A DNA stretch of 64,000 bases from Acetofilamentum sp. GTDB taxonomy: Bacteria > Bacteroidota > Bacteroidia > Bacteroidales > DYOH01. Position 1 is the stretch's first letter. Each line of letters begins with the position of its first letter. Shown in pieces: positions 5,804 to 44,040 of this stretch. Made by a program: the position numbers and the translations under genes. The stretch spans positions 29,893 through 93,892 of the forward strand of contig DYOH01000003.1 in assembly GCA_020720625.1 (NCBI GenBank). Reading direction: 5' to 3'. Below the pieces are notes generated by a model that saw nothing but the letters and a program-made list of their open reading frames with translations, was not told the DNA's origin and ran no database searches.

Positions 5804-6209
5804 GATATTAAAAACACATTTAGAAAACGTTTGCAGCTATTCTTCAACACTTCAAATATTTAATAATTTGTTATTAGATTTATCAATATTCAGATAATTA
5901 GTAAGTTTTCTCTTTTTTATGCTTATAATATGGTAGTATTTTTTGCCTAATATGTATTTATTATAAATAAGTGTTTTCTGATTTCTATTTTTCTGATTTT
6001 GGTGTTTGGTTTGATTTTTTGTGGATTTATTAAGCTAATTTTTTTGAAAGGATTTCGTTTCTATATATTAATCAACTTTGAAAATGAATGGAAAAACTGA
6101 ATTGGAGCATATTTCTAAGCAATAATTTTGCGTATAAAGGATTGTTTCCTCATTTTTGTCAGATAAACCAACATTGACCATTAGTTTTAAAACCATTTGC
6201 CCGATTTTT

Positions 6210-27254: not shown

Positions 27255-28457
27255 TTATTTCTTTATTTTTTTTAGAATATCCGCTGGTACAGCATCTTTG
27301 TGCACCATAATGGCAATGGTTTTATATTGCACAAAAGCACGGGAGGCGTAGAAATAACCACCATATTTGTTGTATTCATCCCACGAATTTTTTACAATAT
27401 AATACTTAGTCCCATTCTGGTCGGTGGCTGCACCCACAATGTGCATACTGTGGTCGTCGGTGGTATACTGTCTGTCGAAAGCTGCCTGACGGTTTTCCTG
27501 TGTAATTTCCATTTCCGGCATAGGTTTAACAAACGAGTAGCGCAAATTAGCCAGTTCCTGTTCAGTTATGTTTTCCCATTTTGAGCGTTCTGTACCGGAA
27601 ACATCTTCGAGCGATTCGGCCGGAACCACTGCCACACCTTGTCTGGAAGCAAAACCCTTTTCGCTCACATCGGCCGCCCAACCTACAGTGTAACCTTTTT
27701 TTAAGGCATTGTCAATAATCATTTCCAATTCGTTAAGCGGAATATTGTGCCATTTTTCCCATAACCAATTGTCCGGAATCTCAACAATACATTCCTGATA
27801 AAAAAGATGATGCGAAAAAGAAGTAAAACTCAGGTAATCTTCAGGTTTAATTTTAAGATACTCCGAAGCTAAGCTTTTTGGAGTAAATTCCTTTCCTTTA
27901 TAGCTGAATTTTTGAGGCACAACACCAAAATAAGCATCCAAAATGCCATCCAAACCATTGATCCAGGCAGTTGAAATACCTGCATTTCCATTAGCATTAA
28001 CCTCGCTATAGGCCGATATAACTCCATCGCAATAGGTTTTAATTACTTTGTCTATTTCTGCATGCACATGGTTGTTTTCGCCGTAGTTCAATCCAGGGTA
28101 AACCTCTGTGGGCACATATCCGTAGTTGATAATGGTATGCAAAACGTCGTGCATTTCGCCGCCTGAACCTAAATTGGTTTTGTTTTGCATGCGCACATAT
28201 TTTATCGCCTTTTCTTTATACATAAGCCTAACAGCGTACATTGGCGCTAAATCGGGCACCTCCTTAATGCCCAATCTTAAAGCTTCCGACTCGAAAAATG
28301 AAGTGGCTGCCCAGCTCCAGCAGGTTCCGCTTTTGTACTGGTTTTTTACGCTTGTTGCAGCCAGCCTGTTTACTTCTTTAAACTGATAGCCCTCTTGAGC
28401 TATTACATTGTATATTAATAAACTGACAATGAGAAAAGTGAAAATAAATTTTTTCAT
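27255..28457 (-). CDS. C1-family cysteine peptidase (bleomycin hydrolase/aminopeptidase C-like), secreted
   Basis: SGTCWSWAATSFFESEALRLG (Cys), DDHSMHIVGAA (His), IVKNSWDE (Asn); signal peptide. Confidence 0.9.
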   Translation of the reverse strand: MKKFIFTFLIVSLLIYNVIAQEGYQFKEVNRLAATSVKNQYKSGTCWSWAATSFFESEALRLGIKEVPDLAPMYAVRLMYKEKAIKYVRMQNKTNLGSGGEMHDVLHTIINYGYVPTEVYPGLNYGENNHVHAEIDKVIKTYCDGVISAYSEVNANGNAGISTAWINGLDGILDAYFGVVPQKFSYKGKEFTPKSLASEYLKIKPEDYLSFTSFSHHLFYQECIVEIPDNWLWEKWHNIPLNELEMIIDNALKKGYTVGWAADVSEKGFASRQGVAVVPAESLEDVSGTERSKWENITEQELANLRYSFVKPMPEMEITQENRQAAFDRQYTTDDHSMHIVGAATDQNGTKYYIVKNSWDEYNKYGGYFYASRAFVQYKTIAIMVHKDAVPADILKKIKK

Positions 28458-30937: not shown

Positions 30938-33900
30938 ATGCGGCTAAAATTTTTGTTCTCAATATTATTTGTATTTCAGTTAAATTTTTTGTTTTCGCAA
31001 GATTTTAGCCTGCTCGGATTGCCCGAAATTAAATATTATTCATTCGAAGATTATAAAGCCGGTCCACAGAATTGGAGCATTGGTCAGGATGGAAATGGTC
31101 GGATGTATTTTGGAAATAACCATGGCTTATTGCGTTTTGACGGAGTAAACTGGGAGCTCTACCCATTAGAGAATCGTTCGATATTGCGAAGTTTAGATAT
31201 AGACAGCGCCGGAAATGTTTTTGTTGGAGGTGAAGGAGAATTTGGATTTTTTTCGCCATCTGCCGATGGCACATTAAAATACACAAAATTATCTTCTGAT
31301 ACAATTGACGTATACTTTGTTGATGTATGGTCTACTTATGCTTACAACGATACAGTATATTTCTTTGCAGGAAAGTCGAACATTTTTTATTATCATCAAG
31401 GCCTGCTAAAAAGAGTTGAAAACGATATAGAATTTAGCAATTTTAGGGGTTTTAAAACCAAGTCGGGGATATATGCCATCGATGCTAATCATGGATTAGC
31501 CAAAATAGTAAACGCCAAACTCCAAAATACCAACCAATTAAAAGATGCATCAAAATATGAAATATATACATACCTTGAGAAAAACCCTAATACTTCTCTG
31601 GCTGTTAGTTCATTAAATGGACTATATATTCGGGAAAACCAGAAAAATTGGATACGGAAAAATACCTTCTTAGACGATTATCTAATAGAAAACCATCCAT
31701 ACCATGCAATTCAGTTGAATGATGGTAACATGTTAATATCTACACTACTAGGAGGTGTTGTTTTTATAAATGCGAATTTCAATCAGGCTAGCATTCTAAA
31801 TAAAGCACAAGGTTTGCACGCAAATGGCATTTATAAAGCATTTCAGGATAAGCAAAATAATATTTGGCTTGCCACAGAAAATGGGATTGAGTATATTCAC
31901 TATTCCAGTCCAATACGCAAATTAGGCGATAAAAACGGATTAGACGGAAGTCTTAATGCCGCCATCTTTTATCGTAACAAATTGTATTTAGGAACATACG
32001 GCGGGGTTTATTATTTGGATATAGATGAACTTAAAAAAAACTTATTTCAAAATAATGCCATTAAACTTTTAGCAAACGAATATTTTTTTGGATTGGATTT
32101 TGGATTGATAAAGCTTGGAAACTCCGATACCGTTTTATTAGGTTCCACATTGCGGAGTATCATTAGAATTACAGAGAATGAAATTACAACTGTCGAAAGT
32201 TTTTATGGTGCCGAAGATATTGAACAATCCAACATCTATCCACAGTATTTTGGAGTAGCCCACGGAGAAGGAATAAATTTGTTTAAAATAAATTACGATG
32301 GTTCGAAGATTGAAAATATAGGCAAATTATTCGGCTTCAATTACAATGTAAGAAAAATTTTGTTCGACAATCACGGATACATTTGGGCTCAAACAGCAAG
32401 AGAAGGTCTGGCATTAATAGAGATTCTCGACTATGAAAAGCTGGAATTTAGAAGTTATTTTTTTGATGAAACACATGGATTGCCAGATAAGATAAAAAAT
32501 ACACCAATAATAATAGACACAAGCCTTGTTATATCTACAAATAATGGTCTTTACGACATTGTTTTGGATAAAGAAAATTTGCAAAATACAAAGTTTAAGA
32601 CATCGCGAAAATTCGGATTCGATTTTGCCAGGGATTCTCTGGTTTTTGATTTTGCCTTTATGCATGAAAACAAAGTTTGGGGACATGCCAATAATAGCTT
32701 TTTTTATAAAGAAACCGATAATTTAATATACAAAGAGCCTTTTTTTGCAATTACTGATGTGGCAGAAGAAACAACACTTTCTTTTTTAGAAAATAAAATT
32801 GTAGCCATTGGTTCGCACAATATGCTTTATTTTTTTAACGAGAAAAAGGATAAAAGCTACGAATTCTACTTCACGCCATTGCTAAACAAAATTAAAATCA
32901 ATGGAGATTTTTATCCCATTGAACCCAGCGTTGGAGGCCTCGAAATTAAATATGTAGCGAAAAATACATATTCTTTTGTACAGAAACTTAGTAGTAATCA
33001 AAATAATTTGAGTTTTTATTTTGCTGTACCCTATTTCGAATACTCCGAAAAAATAGCCTATTCATATCAATTAGAAGGATACGACAATAAATGGTCGGAG
33101 TTTTCGTCCGACAATGTTGCGCGCTACACAAATCTCGGAGCCGGCGATTATATATTTAAAGTAAAAGCCCGCAATGTATATACCCACCAAAGCCAAGAAC
33201 TATTGTTTTTATTTGCAATTAGAAGCCCTTGGTATTTAAGTGCTTATTCAATATTTGCATTTACTTCGCTTCTCCTGATACTTATTTATGTGATTATTAG
33301 ATTAAATAGTGTAAGACTAATAAATCAAAACAAGAAATTAGAGGAAATTGTAAAAAACCGAACACTAGAAATATATCAGCAAAAAGAGGAAATTCAGTCG
33401 CAAACCGAACAATTAAAATCACAGTCGGAGTTATTAAAATTGTCGAATATAGAACTAAGGCAGTTATCCCTGGTAGCCAAAGGCACATCCAATTCGGTAT
33501 TAATACTGGACGATAGAGGAAATATTGAATGGTGGAACTCCGGCTTTACAAAGCTATTCAAGTATAAATTTATGAAATATCAGGGCTCAAACTTTAATAA
33601 AATAAAAAGCAAAATCAGGCCCGATTTAGAAGAAAGTATTAACGAAATAAAGCAGACCAGGCTGCCCAAAGTGTATACAATTCAAGACGAAATATCGCCG
33701 GGAGAGTATTTGTGGTTTCAAACTTCAGTAACACCGGTTTTCGAAGAAGATGGCACAGTATTTAGGTACATTGTAATAGATTCTGATATAACACAAATAA
33801 AAATAGCCGAAAGCGAAATCAATAATCAAAAGCATCAGCTTGAAAAACAGCGCGATAAAATAGCCCATCATAACAAGGAAATGACATCCAGTATTGAGTA

Positions 33901-34642
33901 TGCCAGTAGAATACAGCAAGCCATGCTGCCATTGCCCATTTTTCTGGAAGCCATTTTTAGCGACTTTTTTGTACTAAACCTTCCACGCGATATTGTGAGT
34001 GGAGATTTTTACTGGGCCAGCAGAATAAAAAATCGAACATACATGGCCTTGGGCGATTGCACCGGCCATGGTATTCCGGGAGCATTTTTGAGTTTGCTTG
34101 GAATCTCGTTTTTAAATAATATTATTCAGCGAAACGACGATTTATTGTTAAGCCCGGCAGAAATTCTTAATCAATTGCGCGAACGATTTATTGTATCCCT
34201 ACATCAAAGGGGCAAAAATGGAGAAAGCCAGGATGGTATGGATATTTCTTTGGTGATGATAGACCAAGAGAGCAGTATTCTCGAATTTGCCGGGGCAAAT
34301 AATCCTTTTTATTTTTTTAAGGAAAATTCTAGCCTCCTACAAGAATTAAAGGCAGATAAAATGCCCATTGGAATTCATGCCAACGACCATTTGCCATTTA
34401 CGAATCATACCATTAGTGTCAGGAAAAACGATATAATTTACTTATTTACTGATGGCTATAGGGATCAATTTGGTGGTAATGAAGGAAAGAAATTTATGAC
34501 AATGCGATTTAAAAAACTATTAACCAGCGTAAAAGACCTCGAACTTAACAAGCAGAAACAAATATTAACCGAAATTTTTATGGAATGGAAGATGGGTTTT
34601 GATCAGGTTGATGATATTTTAATTTTTGGAATCAAATTATAA
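30938..34642 (+). CDS. Sensor protein: beta-propeller, triple-Y domain, TM, coiled coil, PAS, SpoIIE/PP2C phosphatase
   Basis: Periplasmic propeller repeats, YSYQLEGYDNKWSEFSSDNVARYTNLGAGDYIFKVKARN, PAS LILDDRGNIEWWNSGFTKLF, SpoIIE SGDFYWA, GDCTGHGIPGAFLS, FTDGYRDQFGG, DDILIFG. Confidence 0.9.
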   Translation: MRLKFLFSILFVFQLNFLFSQDFSLLGLPEIKYYSFEDYKAGPQNWSIGQDGNGRMYFGNNHGLLRFDGVNWELYPLENRSILRSLDIDSAGNVFVGGEGEFGFFSPSADGTLKYTKLSSDTIDVYFVDVWSTYAYNDTVYFFAGKSNIFYYHQGLLKRVENDIEFSNFRGFKTKSGIYAIDANHGLAKIVNAKLQNTNQLKDASKYEIYTYLEKNPNTSLAVSSLNGLYIRENQKNWIRKNTFLDDYLIENHPYHAIQLNDGNMLISTLLGGVVFINANFNQASILNKAQGLHANGIYKAFQDKQNNIWLATENGIEYIHYSSPIRKLGDKNGLDGSLNAAIFYRNKLYLGTYGGVYYLDIDELKKNLFQNNAIKLLANEYFFGLDFGLIKLGNSDTVLLGSTLRSIIRITENEITTVESFYGAEDIEQSNIYPQYFGVAHGEGINLFKINYDGSKIENIGKLFGFNYNVRKILFDNHGYIWAQTAREGLALIEILDYEKLEFRSYFFDETHGLPDKIKNTPIIIDTSLVISTNNGLYDIVLDKENLQNTKFKTSRKFGFDFARDSLVFDFAFMHENKVWGHANNSFFYKETDNLIYKEPFFAITDVAEETTLSFLENKIVAIGSHNMLYFFNEKKDKSYEFYFTPLLNKIKINGDFYPIEPSVGGLEIKYVAKNTYSFVQKLSSNQNNLSFYFAVPYFEYSEKIAYSYQLEGYDNKWSEFSSDNVARYTNLGAGDYIFKVKARNVYTHQSQELLFLFAIRSPWYLSAYSIFAFTSLLLILIYVIIRLNSVRLINQNKKLEEIVKNRTLEIYQQKEEIQSQTEQLKSQSELLKLSNIELRQLSLVAKGTSNSVLILDDRGNIEWWNSGFTKLFKYKFMKYQGSNFNKIKSKIRPDLEESINEIKQTRLPKVYTIQDEISPGEYLWFQTSVTPVFEEDGTVFRYIVIDSDITQIKIAESEINNQKHQLEKQRDKIAHHNKEMTSSIEYASRIQQAMLPLPIFLEAIFSDFFVLNLPRDIVSGDFYWASRIKNRTYMALGDCTGHGIPGAFLSLLGISFLNNIIQRNDDLLLSPAEILNQLRERFIVSLHQRGKNGESQDGMDISLVMIDQESSILEFAGANNPFYFFKENSSLLQELKADKMPIGIHANDHLPFTNHTISVRKNDIIYLFTDGYRDQFGGNEGKKFMTMRFKKLLTSVKDLELNKQKQILTEIFMEWKMGFDQVDDILIFGIKL

Positions 34643-34690
34643 TTCCCTAAATTTAGCCTTCAAAATAAATAAATATAAAAAAGAAGAAAA

Positions 34691-36820
34691 ATGAGAGCGG
34701 AAAGGCGAGTAATTTTGGTTCTTTTGTTTTTTTTGATTCAATCAGGTATTTCAGCTCAAATAGTTGATTCTTTGAGAGCAGAGTTGGATATGCATCTGGA
34801 AAAAGTAGGCGAGGATTCTAAGGCCTTGGATTTATTAAAACAAATTTTTGTAGAATCTTATGATAATGAGCAATTTGCCTTAGAAATTGCAGCACAGGCC
34901 ATGCTAATGGCCGCAAATCTCAGCGACAAGCAAAATGAAGCACTCATGCACGAATGGATTGCCAAGGTATATCGAAAGCAAAAAATGTATTATTTGGCAA
35001 TGGATTATTACTTAAAAGCGGTAAAATTTTATCAGGAACTTGAAATATTTGAAAGCGAAGCACAGTGCTATCTGGAATTAGGGTATACCTATATGGAGCA
35101 GAATGCCGACGATTTGGCCCTAAAACATTTCAATCTTGCAAAGAATATTTACGAGAAGAACAAAGTTAAACCGGGTTTAGCCACCGTTCAGCAAGCTATT
35201 GGTAATCTGTATTTTAAAGAAGAAAACTACGAGTTAGCAATCGAGCAATTTCAGATGGCATTAACTAATACAGAGCAAGAGAAAAGCGATTTAATTGCCG
35301 GTTTGTATTTGAATATTGCACGGGCATATATTCAGAACGAAGATTTTGAAGAAGGCATAGAATATTTGCGAAGGGCACTTGTAAAATATAAACTAGGAAA
35401 TAACCTACAACTGGTAGCCGAAGTATATGTGCAATATGGTGAGGTGTATATCGAACAAAAAGATTATAAACAAGCACTTTTAAATTACGAAAATGCCCTC
35501 TTTATAAACCGCGAAGCCCAGGATTATAACAAAATTGCCGAAAATTATAATAAAATTTCCATCATACATTATCGAAGCGGAAATTTTGTCGAAGCCGCAC
35601 TTCAGGCCGAAAACGCACTAAATTACAACAATAATAACCTTGAGGAGCTTGAAAATTCTTATCAAAATTTATCCAAAGCTAATGAAAAACTTAATAAAGT
35701 GGATTTATCTCTGGAATTTTTGAAGAAGTATCTTCGGGTGCACGATCAGATTACCGAAGATCGTGAAAACAAGCAATTTAACGAAATGCAAATTGGTTTA
35801 GAACTTTCCAGGCAGGAAAAGGAAGTAGAACTATTAAAAAGAGATCAACAAATTCAAAATGAAGAGCTAAAGAGAAGTCGCTTACAAACCTACTTTCTGC
35901 TCTTTGGAATCGTTTTGGTAATTTTGTTTGCATACTATTACTATATCAATAATAAAAGAACAAAGAAGGCTAATTTAGAAATAATCAGGCAAAAAGAAGA
36001 GTTATCTGATGCCAATAAAGCCATTTTGCAACAAAAAGAACTAATTCAGTTAAAAAATAAAGACATTGAAGCAGGCATAAAATATGCACAAAGAATTCAA
36101 ATGGCCCTATTTCCGGATGTAAATGTTTTAAAAAGAATTCTCCCGGATTCTATGGTATATTTTCATCCCAAAGACGAAATCAGTGGTGATTTGTATTGGT
36201 ACTATCAGCTTAAAGAATCTAACAAATTGCTCATAGCTGCCGTAGATTGTACAGGACATGGTGTGCCTGGAGCATTTATGTCGGTGCTAGGCAACACGCT
36301 GCTAAATCAGATAGTTGGAGCAGGAGTTTATAAGCCCGACCAGATACTCAACCAGCTTCACCAAATGGTGCGACAAGCTTTGCATCAGGATACCACCACC
36401 AACCGCGATGGCATGGATATGGCTATTTGCTCTATCGACATGTCGAGAAGAGAGATAGAATTTGCCGGAGCTAAAAATCCGTTGGTTTATTTTATCGATT
36501 TTGAAGCAATTCAGCTTAAAGGAGATATGTTTTCCATTGGCGGTATTCAGCGTGAAAGCGAAAGACTGTTTACCAAAAATACGATTGCATTACCACAAGA
36601 TAAAGAAGGCGTATTTTATTTATTTACAGACGGTTTTCAAGATCAGTTTGGTGGAGAATACAAACAAAAATATACCCGAAACCGTTTAAAAGAACTATTA
36701 AGCGATATACACGAATTATCTTTTGCTGATCAGGCTGCGCGTTTGAAAGAGCAATTTGCGGCTTGGAAAGGAGATTATGAACAATTGGATGATGTACTAA
36801 TTCTCGGTTTCAGATTATGA
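34691..36820 (+). CDS. TPR sensor protein with C-terminal SpoIIE/PP2C phosphatase
   Basis: Signal peptide, TPR repeats, TM YFLLFGIVLVILFAYYYYI, SpoIIE SGDLYWY, VDCTGHGVPGAFMS, FTDGFQDQFGG, DDVLILG. Confidence 0.92.
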   Translation: MRAERRVILVLLFFLIQSGISAQIVDSLRAELDMHLEKVGEDSKALDLLKQIFVESYDNEQFALEIAAQAMLMAANLSDKQNEALMHEWIAKVYRKQKMYYLAMDYYLKAVKFYQELEIFESEAQCYLELGYTYMEQNADDLALKHFNLAKNIYEKNKVKPGLATVQQAIGNLYFKEENYELAIEQFQMALTNTEQEKSDLIAGLYLNIARAYIQNEDFEEGIEYLRRALVKYKLGNNLQLVAEVYVQYGEVYIEQKDYKQALLNYENALFINREAQDYNKIAENYNKISIIHYRSGNFVEAALQAENALNYNNNNLEELENSYQNLSKANEKLNKVDLSLEFLKKYLRVHDQITEDRENKQFNEMQIGLELSRQEKEVELLKRDQQIQNEELKRSRLQTYFLLFGIVLVILFAYYYYINNKRTKKANLEIIRQKEELSDANKAILQQKELIQLKNKDIEAGIKYAQRIQMALFPDVNVLKRILPDSMVYFHPKDEISGDLYWYYQLKESNKLLIAAVDCTGHGVPGAFMSVLGNTLLNQIVGAGVYKPDQILNQLHQMVRQALHQDTTTNRDGMDMAICSIDMSRREIEFAGAKNPLVYFIDFEAIQLKGDMFSIGGIQRESERLFTKNTIALPQDKEGVFYLFTDGFQDQFGGEYKQKYTRNRLKELLSDIHELSFADQAARLKEQFAAWKGDYEQLDDVLILGFRL

Positions 36821-38769
36821 TATCTGTTTGCATCATTTTAGAAAGTGAAAGTGAAATAGAATTTATAAAAAAAAATCTCTGTTCAGATCTCTTTTCGCTC
36901 GAAATTATAGCGTGTGAATTAGAGATCGCTGTTAATTCTGTACAAAGTCTTGCGCCCGACTGGGTTATTTGTGATATCAGATACAAAAATCAATTAAACT
37001 TTGAATTGCCCGACTTTGTTTGCCAACAATCATCTTCTACTTCCATTATATTTTTTGTTGATGATGCAAATCCCAACATGCAAAAAAAACTTTTCTCTTA
37101 CAACCCGCTTTCAATTATTGAGAAAAAAAAATCCGAAATTCAATTTCAATATAGCATCCAAAGAGCCTTACAGCAATATATGATTAGGAAAGAGCTCGAA
37201 GAAAGAAATAGGGAAATATTGGGGAAAAAGAGAGCTTTCGAAAATACTTTGCCATTGTATGAAAAACCGGCAGCAATATTGGAAAAAAGTAGAATAGTTG
37301 CCTGTAATCAAGCTTTCCTGGATTTTTTTGATCAGCAAGATAAAGAAAAAATGCTGAACTCCTATTTATATGATTATCTTCCTGTTTATCAGATAAATAA
37401 TATACATTCTGTGGTTTATTTCGAGAATCAATTATTACAATGCGAAGAACACAAAATTTTATATTTTGAAATAAATATAAAGAAAAGCGAACTAAATACT
37501 CAATTGCTTAAATCGGGAATACTTAAACTCGATGCCAAATTGGAATCCATTCTTTTACTTTTGTTTCCGCCCGAAAATAATTCCGAAATACTTGCATCCG
37601 AAGTTTTAGATAATCATAAATACAAAGAAGCGTATTTTCAGGCACGGATAGGATACCTTATTATAGAAACATCATATTACAAAATTGTAGACGCAAATCC
37701 ATTTACACTCGATTTTTTTCAAACAGATTTTCAAGAAATAAGAAAGAAGCCTTTGTCCGAAATATTTCCCGATGAGTTGGTGCGCTTAATTCACCAAGGA
37801 AGTTTTTCTGATAAAGCTGATTTTTTTCATTTATGTATTGGCGAAAAGTTAGTAAATGTATATGCACAAGTTTCGTCATTTGAACATTTACAAAAAACAT
37901 ATCTATTACTTAGTTTTCATCAGCCCGAATTACCAAATGAGCCATCAAAAGATGAAGCGCTTAAGCAATCCTTAAAAAAAGAGCAGGATAGAAAAAAAAT
38001 AGTAGAGAAGCACCAACGCTTAAACGAAAGCCTCAGCTATGCCCAAAGAATTCAGTCAGCCCTGATGCCTTCATACGATTATTTGTCAAAATATTTAGAT
38101 AATTTTTTTGTTTTTTTGCAACCAAAAGAAATTGTAAGTGGCGATTTCTATTGGGCCAACTACCGTAACGGACATTTTTTCCTTTCCTTGGCCGATGCAA
38201 CCGGGCACGGAGTTCCGGCAGCTTTTTTATCCATTTTGGGAATGTCTTATCTCAACGAAATTACCTTAGATATGGAGAAAGGTAAGGCATCGCAAGTACT
38301 CGATATTTTTAAAGGAAAGATTGTAAAATCATTAAATCAAGAATTTACTTCGAACGAAATTCCTGACGGTTTCGATATGGCTCTGCTGATTATAAATAAG
38401 GAAAAAATGAGAATGCATTTTTCGGCGGCAAACATGTCGGCCTATATGATAAGAAATAAACATTTAGTTGAAATAAAAGGCGATAGATTATCAATAGGAT
38501 TAAACCAAAAATCAGAAATGAGTTTTACAAATCATAAATTACGACTTCAAAAAGGAGATAAAATATATTTGTTTTCCGATGGAATTACAGACCAGTTTGG
38601 CGGTACTCAAAACAAAAAACTATTTAATTCGGGCCTCAAGCAAATGATAATGGACATAGAACAACTGCCAATGAAGGAACAGCGAGAGAAATTAAAACAA
38701 TTAATTGCAGAATGGAAAAAAAATCAGGAACAAATTGATGACATACTCTTGCTCGGCATACAAGTATAA
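36817..38769 (+). CDS. Cytoplasmic receiver-like and PAS protein with C-terminal SpoIIE/PP2C phosphatase
   Basis: N-terminal PDWVICDIRYKN receiver-like region, PAS-like segments, SpoIIE SGDFYWA, ADATGHGVPAAFLS, FSDGITDQFGG, DDILLLG. Overlaps the previous gene by 4 nt (ATGA). Confidence 0.85.
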   Translation: MISVCIILESESEIEFIKKNLCSDLFSLEIIACELEIAVNSVQSLAPDWVICDIRYKNQLNFELPDFVCQQSSSTSIIFFVDDANPNMQKKLFSYNPLSIIEKKKSEIQFQYSIQRALQQYMIRKELEERNREILGKKRAFENTLPLYEKPAAILEKSRIVACNQAFLDFFDQQDKEKMLNSYLYDYLPVYQINNIHSVVYFENQLLQCEEHKILYFEINIKKSELNTQLLKSGILKLDAKLESILLLLFPPENNSEILASEVLDNHKYKEAYFQARIGYLIIETSYYKIVDANPFTLDFFQTDFQEIRKKPLSEIFPDELVRLIHQGSFSDKADFFHLCIGEKLVNVYAQVSSFEHLQKTYLLLSFHQPELPNEPSKDEALKQSLKKEQDRKKIVEKHQRLNESLSYAQRIQSALMPSYDYLSKYLDNFFVFLQPKEIVSGDFYWANYRNGHFFLSLADATGHGVPAAFLSILGMSYLNEITLDMEKGKASQVLDIFKGKIVKSLNQEFTSNEIPDGFDMALLIINKEKMRMHFSAANMSAYMIRNKHLVEIKGDRLSIGLNQKSEMSFTNHKLRLQKGDKIYLFSDGITDQFGGTQNKKLFNSGLKQMIMDIEQLPMKEQREKLKQLIAEWKKNQEQIDDILLLGIQV

Positions 38770-38882: not shown

Positions 38883-40187
38883 ATGTCACAATTAAAAGCA
38901 CTTTTAAAACAAAAAATCGAAGAACATCGTCCAAGAACTACACGTTTGTTAAAAGAATTTCCAAACGTAAAAGTTGGTGAAGTAACTATGGAGCAACTAA
39001 TTGGTGGTATGCGTGATATTAAATCACTCGTAACAGATATCTCCTATTTAGATCCGCAAGAAGGAATCCGTTTCAGAGGAAAAACAATTCCGGAAACAAT
39101 GGATGCATTACCAAAACCACAAGGCAAAGATTATCCGTATGTAGAGGCATTTTGGTACTTTCTGCTAACCGGAGAAATTCCGAGCATGGAGCAAACAAAC
39201 GAGGTAATCGCCGATTTTAAATCAAGAAGCAAAGTGCCTCAATATGTTTTTGATATTTTAAAAGCTATGCCTGCCGACTCTCATCCAATGGTAATGCTTT
39301 CTACGGCTGTATTAGCCATGCAAAAAGAATCTAAATTTGCCAAATGGTACGAAGAAGGATTTAAAAAGCTTGATGCATGGGATACAATGTATGAAGATTC
39401 TACTGATTTGTTGGCCAAATTGCCCGAAGTTGCCGCATTTATCTATCGCTTAAAATACAAAGGTGGTGATATTATTGCTCCAGATGCAAATTTGGATTTT
39501 GGTGCAAATTTTGCCCACATGATGGGAATTAGCGCTCCTTATGACGATGTTGCCAGAATGTATTTTATTCTGCACTCCGATCACGAATCAGGAAACGTTT
39601 CGGCACATGCTACACATTTGGTCGCTTCTGCTCTTTCCGACGCTTATTACTCATTATCAGCTGGTTTAAACGGTTTGGCCGGCCCATTGCATGGCTTAGC
39701 TAATCAAGAAGTATTGCGCTGGTTGCAAGGGGTAATGGATAAACTTCACGGACAAGAGCCTACCGAAGAAATGATGGCAAAATTTGTGCGCGAAACATTA
39801 GATAGCGGACAAGTTATTCCCGGATTCGGACATGCAGTTTTGCGCAAAACCGACCCCAGATATCAATCTCAGCGCGATTTTTGCGTAAAACACTTGCCTA
39901 ACGACAAAATGTTTAAGTACGTAGATTTACTTTTCCGCGTTGTGCCCGATATTTTGCTGGAAAAAGGCAAAGCCAAAAATCCATGGCCCAATGTTGATGC
40001 TCAATCTGGTGTTATTCAATGGTATTACGGTTTAACTGAATACGATTTCTATACCGTTTTATTCGGTGTTGGACGTGCCATTGGCGTATTAGCTAATATT
40101 ACTTGGGACAGAGGTTTAGGATATCCATTGGAACGTCCGAAATCTTTAACTACCGATATGTTGGAAGCAATTGCCGGAATTAAATAA
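38883..40187 (+). CDS. Citrate synthase, eukaryotic/mitochondrial-like (Si) type
   Basis: HSDHESGNVSAHATHLVASALSDAYYSLSAGLNGLAGPLHGLANQEVLRWLQ; PGFGHAVLRKTDPRYQSQRDF. Confidence 0.95.
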   Translation: MSQLKALLKQKIEEHRPRTTRLLKEFPNVKVGEVTMEQLIGGMRDIKSLVTDISYLDPQEGIRFRGKTIPETMDALPKPQGKDYPYVEAFWYFLLTGEIPSMEQTNEVIADFKSRSKVPQYVFDILKAMPADSHPMVMLSTAVLAMQKESKFAKWYEEGFKKLDAWDTMYEDSTDLLAKLPEVAAFIYRLKYKGGDIIAPDANLDFGANFAHMMGISAPYDDVARMYFILHSDHESGNVSAHATHLVASALSDAYYSLSAGLNGLAGPLHGLANQEVLRWLQGVMDKLHGQEPTEEMMAKFVRETLDSGQVIPGFGHAVLRKTDPRYQSQRDFCVKHLPNDKMFKYVDLLFRVVPDILLEKGKAKNPWPNVDAQSGVIQWYYGLTEYDFYTVLFGVGRAIGVLANITWDRGLGYPLERPKSLTTDMLEAIAGIK

Positions 40188-40217
40188 GGCAAAAACTCCA
40201 ATTAAACAAAAATTTGG

Positions 40218-40248
40218 CCGCTCTGTTTTTTTCAGAGCGGTTTTTTTT
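40218..40248 (+). terminator. Rho-independent terminator after citrate synthase
   Basis: ccgctctg / cagagcgg hairpin followed by a T run. Confidence 0.9.
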
Positions 40249-40251
40249 CTC

Positions 40252-40320
40252 ATAAAAAAAGGCGGCTTCGAAAAGCCGCCAAAACCAAAAAATTACATAG
40301 CCATGAGAAAAAATTTCTCC
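40252..40320 (-). ncRNA. Candidate orphan small RNA (about 66-70 nt) ending in its own terminator
   Basis: Minus-strand unit: promoter TTTG-N20-TATCTTTG (40355-40324), then GGAGAAATTTTTTCTCATGGCTATGTAATTTTTTGGTTTT, then hairpin GGCGGCTT-TTCG-AAGCCGCC and T7. No minus-strand CDS nearby. Confidence 0.65.
40254..40280 (-). terminator. Rho-independent terminator of the candidate small RNA
   Basis: 8-bp perfect stem ggcggctt/aagccgcc; seven T residues on the minus strand. Confidence 0.85.
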
Positions 40321-40323
40321 ATA

Positions 40324-40355
40324 CAAAGATAAGCAATTATAAAGCCTTATGCAAA
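40324..40355 (-). promoter_or_regulatory. Bacteroidota promoter TTTG-N20-TATCTTTG for the candidate small RNA
   Basis: CAAAGATA 40324-40331 and CAAA 40352-40355 on the + strand, exactly 20 nt apart. Confidence 0.72.
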
Positions 40356-40734
40356 TATAGCATTATGTATTCCGTTTAAAAATTTAGGGATTTCACAATT
40401 TTTATCTTTTTTTTATTTTGCAAATCTACCATCCAATAGTTTGTTTATAATAATTATTGTGCTGATTAATAGCTATTTAACCAAACAGCATTATCATTTT
40501 AAATGATTTCGATAATTCCAAGGTATTCAATCATATTTTTATATATTAACGTATATTTATTGGTATTTAATTTGCATCCTTGATTTAAAATCAATGAATT
40601 GAATAAGCATTGAAGAGAATTTTTTAAAATAATTTAGAAAAGTATTCATAAAATGCTTGTAAAATGATGCCTAAAAGCTAAAAAATAGCTATCTTAATCA
40701 AAATTTTATGGCCAATTTTGGTTGAATATTAGGC

Positions 40735-43700
40735 ATGAGAAAAGCATTTCTTTTTATCAGAATATATCTATTTTTGGGGCTAATTATTAGCCCCTTAATT
40801 GGCTTTTCTCAACTTATCGACCAAGCAAATATCAACGAATATACAATCAAAGATGGTTTATCGCTGAGTTATATTACAACCGTTTTTCAGGATAAAAACG
40901 ACTTTATTTGGGTTGGAACACAAGACGGACTAAACAGATTCAATGGTTCAAAATTTACTTTTTTTCGACATAACGCATCAAATCCATTTTCCATCCCCGG
41001 CAATTATATCAGGTCAATGGCGCAGGAACACAATGGCAATTTGTGGATTGCCACCGAAAACGCTGTATGTATTTTCGAACAATCTACCTCTGCGTTTTAT
41101 GTAATTATGGATAGTCATTCGGATAATTATCAGATGGTAAGCGATATTATTGTAAACGACTCATCTGTTTATCTAAATGCATCAAATGGGATTTTTAAAA
41201 TTAGGAAATCGGATTATGCTATTCAGTATTTCGAGCATTTTAACGACCCTTTTAATTTCGAATGCAATACTTGTCTAAATCAATTGATTGAATTAGACCC
41301 TCATCTTTTGCTGATTGCGTCGAAGGATGGATTGTTTTTATTCAATAAAGATTCTGAGTCTTTCTCACGCTTTACCCATAAGAAAAATAATGTAAATTCA
41401 TTGCCAACAAATTCGACCATAAGTCTTTATATGATAAATAAAGATAGCGTGCTTATTGGTACAACTTATGGGTTAAGTCTTTTTAATCCTCAAAAATATA
41501 CCTTTAAAAATTTTTTATTGACCGATAATGAATTAAAACTTTTCAATTATCGCAATATTATTAATTCTATAAAACGAGATCAGGAAGGTTTTTTTTGGCT
41601 GGGTACAAAAATGGGTATTCTGATTTTTGATTTGCATACCGGAGTTTTTTCAACGGCATTAGACTACAATCCTGCAATTTCTAAAATTCAGGACAAAGAA
41701 ATTAATGCACTACTTCTCGATAAAACCAATTCATTGTGGGTAGCTACAGCAGGAAGTAATTTATTTAGTATTTCGCGAAATAAATCTTTTTTTAAAAAAC
41801 TGAATCACTATACCAAAACACCTGCTTACGAGATAAGGGGTGTATACCTTAGCAGCAACAATTTACTTTTTGTTGGTACAAATAATAATGGACTATTTGT
41901 GTATAATGATAAAAAAGAGTTGTTTCGATATTTTTCTCCCGATAATTCAGTTTTGAAATCATTTTCGATTTTAAGTATGGCGGAACTTCCTGATCAAAAT
42001 GTTGTTTTGGGCACAAGCGAAGGGCTTTATCTATATAATATACAAAGCAATAAAATAGAATTTTTTTCAGAAAATTGGAAGCATCTTCCCAAATTTATTT
42101 TTCAGAATAACCGTATTTTTGATATTGAAATTACGAATAAAAATCATTTTTGGCTGGCTACAGAAAATGGATTAATTTATGCGAGCGAAAGCGATTTTAA
42201 AGCTTTTTATAGCAGCCAAAATGATTCAAGCTCATTAAGCAATAATATTTGTTATACACTTGAAATCGATTCTAGCGGGCATTTATGGGTCGGCACTTTG
42301 CATGGATTAAATAAACTCATCGATTTTGAAAAGGGAACATTTAAACATTATTTTGAAGATCGAACAAATAAAGGGCTTCCGAATAACTCTATATTAAGTA
42401 TATATCAGGAAAATGCGCGCACGCTTTGGATTGGTACAGAGAGCGGATTAGCAAAATTCTATATGCAGGCCGATACATTTAAACATTACACCGTAAACGA
42501 TGGCTTGCTTAATGATTTTGTTTACTCCGTATTTACTGACAAGTACAATCGGGTTTGGTTCTCAACAAATAACGGGGTAAGCCGACTTACCCCCCAAACA
42601 AGCGAAATTTTTCATTTTGGAAAATCCGATGGCTTACAGGATTATGAATTTAACTTATGCGCAGGCCACAAAGATAAGAATGGCATAATATATTTTGGGG
42701 GTAATTCGGGCTTAAACTTTTTTAATCCAGATTCTTCGTTCGTTCAGGAGAATGTTCGTCAGGTAAAAATATATTCTATTATTGTTACACAAAATGGTCG
42801 TCAGGAAGAAATTATTGTCTACGACCAAAAAGAATTTGCATTTTTTTATAAAGGACTGCACATACAGCTTAATTTTGTGGTTCCCGATTATAATTCTATA
42901 GGAAACTATGCATATCAATACAGAATGCTTGGTATAGATGATAAATGGGTGAACCTTGGAAAAAGAAATACCGTAAGTTTTTCTCAATTGCCAGTGGGCG
43001 AGTATATTTTTCATGTAAAAGGAGCCAATAACCATGGTGTGTGGAATAAAGAAACCACATCTGTGAAAATTATTATTAAACCTGCATTTTATAACAGTCG
43101 TGTGGCTATTTTTACCTATTTATTTTTTGGTATAAGTTTTATTTTGATGTCGGTATTTTTTGTAACAAGTAGGCTTCGAAAAGAAAACTCCTTACTTAAA
43201 CAAAAGGAGAGGGATGCCCGCAAAATTGCTTTACAAAAAGAAGAATTGCAACAGCAAAACCTGAATATTCGCTCGAGCATGGAATATGCCCAACGTATTA
43301 TTTATGCCATGATGCCATCTGTGGATGATTTTAAGAAAATCCTGCCCGAATCTTTTATTATTTACGAGCCCAAAGATATTGTGAGCGGAGATTTTTACTG
43401 GATTGCCCAAAGAAATGGCTTAGTTTATTTTGCTTTGGTAGATTGCACGGGTCATGGTATTCCGGGGGCTTTTATGTCAATTATTGGGTTTGATATTCTG
43501 CGAAATGTAGTTAATAAAATGCATTTTACAGAGCCTGCCGATATTTTGAGCCATTTAAGTATGGATTTGGTTGAAGTGCTTACAAAAGAGAGCAGTAGTA
43601 AGGAATCCTTGCAAGATGGAATGGATATGTCGGTTTGCGTATTAGATACATCAAACAATACCCTGAAATTTGCCGGTGCCTATAATCCATTATATCTGGT

Positions 43701-44040
43701 TAGAAATAATAATATTATAGAATACAAAGCCGACAGGTATAGTGTGGGTGCAAGTGGTATAGCCTCGGGTCATAAATTTAGTACCAAAATTATTCAATTA
43801 CAACCCGACGATATTATCTATTTATTTTCTGATGGTTACACAGACCAGTTTGGTGGGCCTGAAAACAAAAAATTTAAACATCGCCGGTTCAGGCATTTAT
43901 TACTTAGCGTGCACAAACACCCACTCCAGATGCAGAAGAAAGCGATTTGGAATGCCCACCAAGCCTGGAAAAAAGGGCTCGAACAAGTAGATGATATTTT
44001 AATTATGGGAATTAAACCTTATTGTATTAATATTAAATAG
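40735..44040 (+). CDS. Sensor protein: beta-propeller (two-component regulator propeller repeats), triple-Y domain, TM, SpoIIE/PP2C phosphatase
   Basis: FQDKNDFIWVGTQDGLNRFNG propeller repeats; YQYRMLGIDDKWVNLGKRNTVSFSQLPVGEYIFHVKGAN; SpoIIE SGDFYWI, VDCTGHGIPGAFMS, FSDGYTDQFGG, DDILIMG. Confidence 0.92.
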   Translation: MRKAFLFIRIYLFLGLIISPLIGFSQLIDQANINEYTIKDGLSLSYITTVFQDKNDFIWVGTQDGLNRFNGSKFTFFRHNASNPFSIPGNYIRSMAQEHNGNLWIATENAVCIFEQSTSAFYVIMDSHSDNYQMVSDIIVNDSSVYLNASNGIFKIRKSDYAIQYFEHFNDPFNFECNTCLNQLIELDPHLLLIASKDGLFLFNKDSESFSRFTHKKNNVNSLPTNSTISLYMINKDSVLIGTTYGLSLFNPQKYTFKNFLLTDNELKLFNYRNIINSIKRDQEGFFWLGTKMGILIFDLHTGVFSTALDYNPAISKIQDKEINALLLDKTNSLWVATAGSNLFSISRNKSFFKKLNHYTKTPAYEIRGVYLSSNNLLFVGTNNNGLFVYNDKKELFRYFSPDNSVLKSFSILSMAELPDQNVVLGTSEGLYLYNIQSNKIEFFSENWKHLPKFIFQNNRIFDIEITNKNHFWLATENGLIYASESDFKAFYSSQNDSSSLSNNICYTLEIDSSGHLWVGTLHGLNKLIDFEKGTFKHYFEDRTNKGLPNNSILSIYQENARTLWIGTESGLAKFYMQADTFKHYTVNDGLLNDFVYSVFTDKYNRVWFSTNNGVSRLTPQTSEIFHFGKSDGLQDYEFNLCAGHKDKNGIIYFGGNSGLNFFNPDSSFVQENVRQVKIYSIIVTQNGRQEEIIVYDQKEFAFFYKGLHIQLNFVVPDYNSIGNYAYQYRMLGIDDKWVNLGKRNTVSFSQLPVGEYIFHVKGANNHGVWNKETTSVKIIIKPAFYNSRVAIFTYLFFGISFILMSVFFVTSRLRKENSLLKQKERDARKIALQKEELQQQNLNIRSSMEYAQRIIYAMMPSVDDFKKILPESFIIYEPKDIVSGDFYWIAQRNGLVYFALVDCTGHGIPGAFMSIIGFDILRNVVNKMHFTEPADILSHLSMDLVEVLTKESSSKESLQDGMDMSVCVLDTSNNTLKFAGAYNPLYLVRNNNIIEYKADRYSVGASGIASGHKFSTKIIQLQPDDIIYLFSDGYTDQFGGPENKKFKHRRFRHLLLSVHKHPLQMQKKAIWNAHQAWKKGLEQVDDILIMGIKPYCINIK

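Follow-up and report, generated by a model that had tools for sequence, protein, structure and literature searches.

Layout of the gltA downstream region

The window analysed here is a stretch of 64,000 nt from the genome of an uncultured Bacteroidales bacterium, in which a candidate stand-alone gene for a 66-nt RNA adjoins gltA, the citrate synthase gene (38883-40187). On the plus strand the next gene is 40735-44040, which encodes propeller, Y_Y_Y and SpoIIE domains. gltA is flanked on both sides (30938-38769 and 40735-44040) by genes whose large protein products end in SpoIIE-like phosphatase stretches; Pfam was run for 40735 only, and the other three were read by eye from the translations. 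The features between gltA and 40735 are listed below.

40216-40250, plus strand: gltA terminator (40216-40242 plus T tail), tail to tail with the RNA terminator
40254-40280, minus strand: intrinsic terminator with 8-bp stem, TTCG loop and seven T
40254-40319, minus strand: predicted 66-nt RNA, placed by the spacing of the -7 box and the end of the terminator
40305-40319, minus strand: 5' hairpin GAGAAA-UUU-UUUCUC, from the computed fold
40324-40355, minus strand: promoter read from the sequence, -33 TTTG at 40355-40352, N20, -7 TATCTTTG at 40331-40324

An earlier note on this DNA had described a promoter, a body and a terminator hairpin with seven T on the minus strand, and all of them are present. 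Like the promoters that the high-confidence intergenic sRNAs of the Bacteroidota (PMC7366714) carry of their own, this one is of the phylum type, an exact TTTG-N20-TAnnTTTG (consensus in PMC7366714 and PMC9723704). In Flavobacterium, promoters of this type have their -7 box at -12 to -5 (PMC9723704), which predicts +1 at 40319. The RNA body lies between promoter and terminator stem at 40320-40281 and is followed by the stem GGCGGCTT-TTCG-AAGCCGCC at 40280-40261 and seven T at 40260-40254; with its GC-rich 8-bp stem and its T tract this is a Rho-independent terminator, as expected at the 3' end of this sRNA class. From 40319 to 40254 the transcript would measure 66 nt, in agreement with the earlier estimate of about 66-70 nt. 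The 5' end, said to be foldable (GAGAAA-TTT-TTTCTC), indeed forms a hairpin in the computed fold, with its first base at the predicted +1. Folding of 67 nt gave z = -3.1, a score to which the terminator contributes much. We also observed that TTTTTTCTCAT within the RNA and ATGAGAAAAAA just past the terminator constitute an inverted repeat of about 12 bp flanking the terminator hairpin (window 40243-40314), which offers an alternative long fold on terminator read-through (z = -4.3).

The unit is well isolated. The gltA terminator faces that of the RNA, so that the back-to-back arrangement proposed earlier checks out. The nearest downstream minus-strand ORF, at a cut-off of at least 90 aa, starts at 28457 and is 11.8 kb off, in line with the claim that no minus-strand gene follows for more than 10 kb. 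Coding potential was not found either: the 9-codon frame MEKFFLMAM, whose ATG had been placed at or upstream of the start site, has this ATG at 40322-40320, i.e. at -3 to -1 relative to the predicted +1, and a peptide product is therefore unlikely.

Rarity of promoter-terminator pairs in the genome

As background, a 1.25-Mb sample of this genome was examined, in which intergenic DNA makes up 14%. Perfect promoter matches were intergenic in 43 of 92 cases and 33 of these 43 aim at a same-strand gene, whereas a reversed-motif control gave 9 of 48 intergenic matches with orientations of 4 to 5. Judged by this enrichment and orientation, the intergenic matches to the motif are mostly real. Two intergenic perfect promoters without a coding gene after them stand before tRNA genes. 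Strong terminators are located within 300 bp behind a same-strand gene in 49 of 71 cases. Intergenic promoter-terminator pairs without an intervening gene occur only twice in the 1.25 Mb, namely in the RNA unit and in a his leader, and the RNA unit is the only one without a gene to lead. Because such pairs are so rare, it is a good candidate for an orphan sRNA gene. By rough arithmetic, chance alone would produce about 0.05-0.3 such pairs in the initial sample of 655 kb, and a chance origin of the pair is unlikely.

Two further loci were noticed in the same genome. The his leader (L206:1330-1160, minus strand, contig C15) consists of a promoter, a His-rich frame MNRNFFHLHHHLHLVIQ and a terminator before hisG and is probably a histidine attenuator in a Bacteroidales genome. 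At L129:6217-6540 (contig C7) a tandem TTGTAATA(C/G)... repeat, masked in part by N, comes after a perfect promoter match, directly beside a SAM riboswitch (6097-6198) on the opposite strand.

Homologues and known RNA families

Searches through some 400 genomes of the order, run on 59, 118 (pattern), 12 and 394 genomes, turned up no homologue of the RNA unit. Inspected matches outside the own genome turned out to be gene starts, promoters, terminators or coding stretches and not the RNA unit. The genome-wide search for other copies suggested in the earlier note was run and returned none in the own genome, where the unit is single-copy. Synteny 3' of gltA was not conserved in 22 named loci or in a genome of the same genus; in a same-family locus the sequence ends inside gltA. 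The conservation in relatives on which the earlier note had set store was thus not seen, though the closest relatives compared are distant, with gltA 78% identical in the same genus and 91% in the best named locus. At such distances the absence of homologues permits no fair verdict on conservation, and no conserved seed was seen in the genomes searched.

The proposed comparison with Rfam was carried out as well: across the whole window no family, Bacteroidales-1 included, reached its gathering score, and a permissive scan gave only sub-threshold hits. The RNA unit is a member of neither ncS025 (RF02869; 33.3 bits against a gathering score of 46) nor rseX (RF01401; 26.1 bits against 50); these weak matches fall on the terminator hairpin and its neighbourhood.

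Complementarity to translation starts

The earlier note had not mentioned a further property of the RNA body, its complementarity to gene starts, among them the start of the adjacent gene. The complementary part corresponds to about +1 to +38 of the RNA. The stretches involved are the following.

40281-40319, minus strand: stretch complementary to translation starts, overlapped by the 5' hairpin; the plus strand reads start-like, with ATG at 40303 (MRKNFSIQR, then stop)
40709-40753, plus strand: predicted pairing site in the start region of gene 40735-44040, with an 11-bp helix over CATGAGAAAAG (40734-40744)

Weak cross-genome matches cluster on the RNA body, and read on the plus strand many of them are starts of secreted-protein genes. 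The context of the plus-strand ATG ranks at the 89th percentile of true starts and at the 99.6th of all ATGs, and by this score the RNA body is antisense to a start-like sequence, which hints at a mechanism and at a rival explanation alike. Of the 935 start regions in the sample, the best partner was the start of a DUF2807 secreted-protein gene (-31.2 kcal/mol), with the adjacent gene start at 40735 second (-28.7 kcal/mol). In a comparison by rank, all 60 shuffled RNAs fell short of these energies, and for the 40735 start none of 2000 shuffles of either partner paired as well; start-region complementarity therefore goes beyond chance. When 16 window transcripts were scanned end to end, the start codon of 40735 was the best site.

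Mean pairing energy over all starts was no better than over coding sequence (-13.4 vs -13.9), and for the gltA start no signal was obtained (p about 0.5), so that regulation of gltA through pairing at its start was rejected. Antisense copies of real starts reached the best energy of the RNA in only 1.7% of cases. The complementarity of the RNA hence exceeds that of ordinary start-like sequence in these target tests, all of which were post hoc. The 5' hairpin sequesters part of the seed, and the 40735 target has a fold of its own; cofolding of the RNA with this target yielded a net gain of about -18 kcal/mol. An origin of the unit as a partial duplication of the 40735 start was also considered; the similarity spans 22 bp (p = 0.044) and is not convincing.

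Interpretation and alternative explanations

Promoter, terminator, isolation and complementarity are all legible in the DNA itself. With the first three of these, no gene downstream and the peptide ATG upstream of the predicted +1, the reading as an orphan sRNA gene put forward in the earlier note gains support as an inference from sequence, and the RNA is probably an ordinary lineage-specific regulatory RNA. The explanation we prefer, with a confidence somewhat short of even, is a lineage-specific intergenic sRNA gene on the minus strand whose 5' part would pair with start-codon regions of mRNAs and thereby lower translation.

A transcript may also exist and act otherwise, at other mRNA sites or by protein binding, or be newborn and without function, with the start complementarity incidental. 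This possibility is to be taken seriously, if still doubtful: the promoter and terminator evidence is independent of the target evidence, no conservation of the unit was found, and 27 of the 49 intergenic sRNAs identified with high confidence in B. thetaiotaomicron are specific to the strain (PMC7366714). Nevertheless the complementarity to the neighbour lies far outside the shuffles and tops the window transcripts. We regard it as improbable that the plus strand holds a gene start that has decayed or been displaced (AAAACCAAAAAATTACATAGCC-ATG-AGA-AAA..., with a stop after 9 codons), whose antisense would naturally fit other starts and beside which the promoter-like sequence on the minus strand would be secondary. 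The ATG context percentiles and the recurrence of like starts of secreted-protein genes in relatives speak for it, but no promoter motif was seen upstream of ATG 40303 on that strand, as far back as the gltA terminator, the frame ends after nine codons, similarity to the 40735 start is restricted to the 22 bp mentioned, an equally good fit is rare among antisense copies of real starts, and the minus-oriented terminator would be left unexplained.

Promoter-like and terminator-like sequences might also have arisen by accident in AT-rich intergenic DNA, or the hairpin might only back up termination between neighbouring genes. Random promoter matches do occur, as the nine intergenic ones in the reversed control illustrate, and the rough expectation per 655 kb is above zero; yet the consensus is exact, the distance ideal, the long U tract minus-oriented only, and strong terminators mostly lie close behind a same-strand gene, which makes this quite improbable. 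A leader peptide or attenuator encoded by MEKFFLMAM is highly improbable. The frame is there and the sole other similar unit in the genome sample is the his leader peptide ahead of hisG, but the ATG precedes the predicted +1 and 11.8 kb without a minus-strand gene follow.

In the preferred pairing model, the RNA would be transcribed from about 40319 to 40254 and consist of a small hairpin at the 5' end, a middle part with little structure and the terminator. Its first 38 nt or so would open and pair with start-codon regions, the main target being the divergently transcribed neighbour 40735 and a possible further one the DUF2807 secreted-protein gene elsewhere in the genome. In mRNAs of this phylum an A-rich upstream stretch replaces Shine-Dalgarno sites. 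Pairing would cover the AUG and this A-rich stretch of the neighbour mRNA and lower its translation, and the sRNA would probably be repressive; we infer here that the unit is transcribed, where exactly +1 lies, that the pairing takes place in the cell and which way the regulation goes. In its most specific form, which we consider somewhat unlikely, the unit would act as a dedicated antisense switch with a locus separate from that of its target: the 66-nt RNA, made about 415 bp upstream and divergently, would open its own 5' hairpin and cover the start codons of the propeller/SpoIIE signalling gene and of a second secreted-protein gene. To our knowledge, targets have been assigned to few Bacteroidota sRNAs, and little is established about their action on mRNAs that lack Shine-Dalgarno sites. 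The candidate RNA points to one predicted target next door together with a simple mechanism, and its absence from relatives makes it a possible case of a recently born sRNA.

Comparison with known Bacteroidota sRNAs

The closest precedent is GibS (BTnc035), a trans-encoded sRNA of B. thetaiotaomicron that pairs with the start-codon regions of its targets (PMC7366714); by analogy with this pairing we propose lowered translation of 40735. Both are intergenic in Bacteroidota, end in an intrinsic terminator and have a 5' part for which pairing with start-codon regions is predicted. GibS, however, is about 145 nt long, conserved within Bacteroides, driven by a PM2 promoter and unstructured at its 5' end (PMC7366714), whereas the predicted RNA has 66 nt, a promoter of the sigma-ABfr type, a 5' hairpin and no homologues found; no sequence relation is claimed. 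MasB (BTnc201), also from B. thetaiotaomicron, is an intergenic sRNA, short and of narrow conservation, which represses a target mRNA through pairing close to the 5' end of that mRNA (PMC10994844). The RNA unit resembles it in being short, narrowly distributed and intergenic and in its predicted pairing near an mRNA 5' end; MasB, of about 100 nt, pairs about 40 nt into the coding sequence, whereas the RNA described here is predicted to cover the AUG. In Bacteroides, GibS and MasB set a precedent for sRNAs that base-pair close to a start codon, and the RNA unit would belong to an already known class, that of lineage-specific intergenic sRNAs, with one specific candidate target next door.
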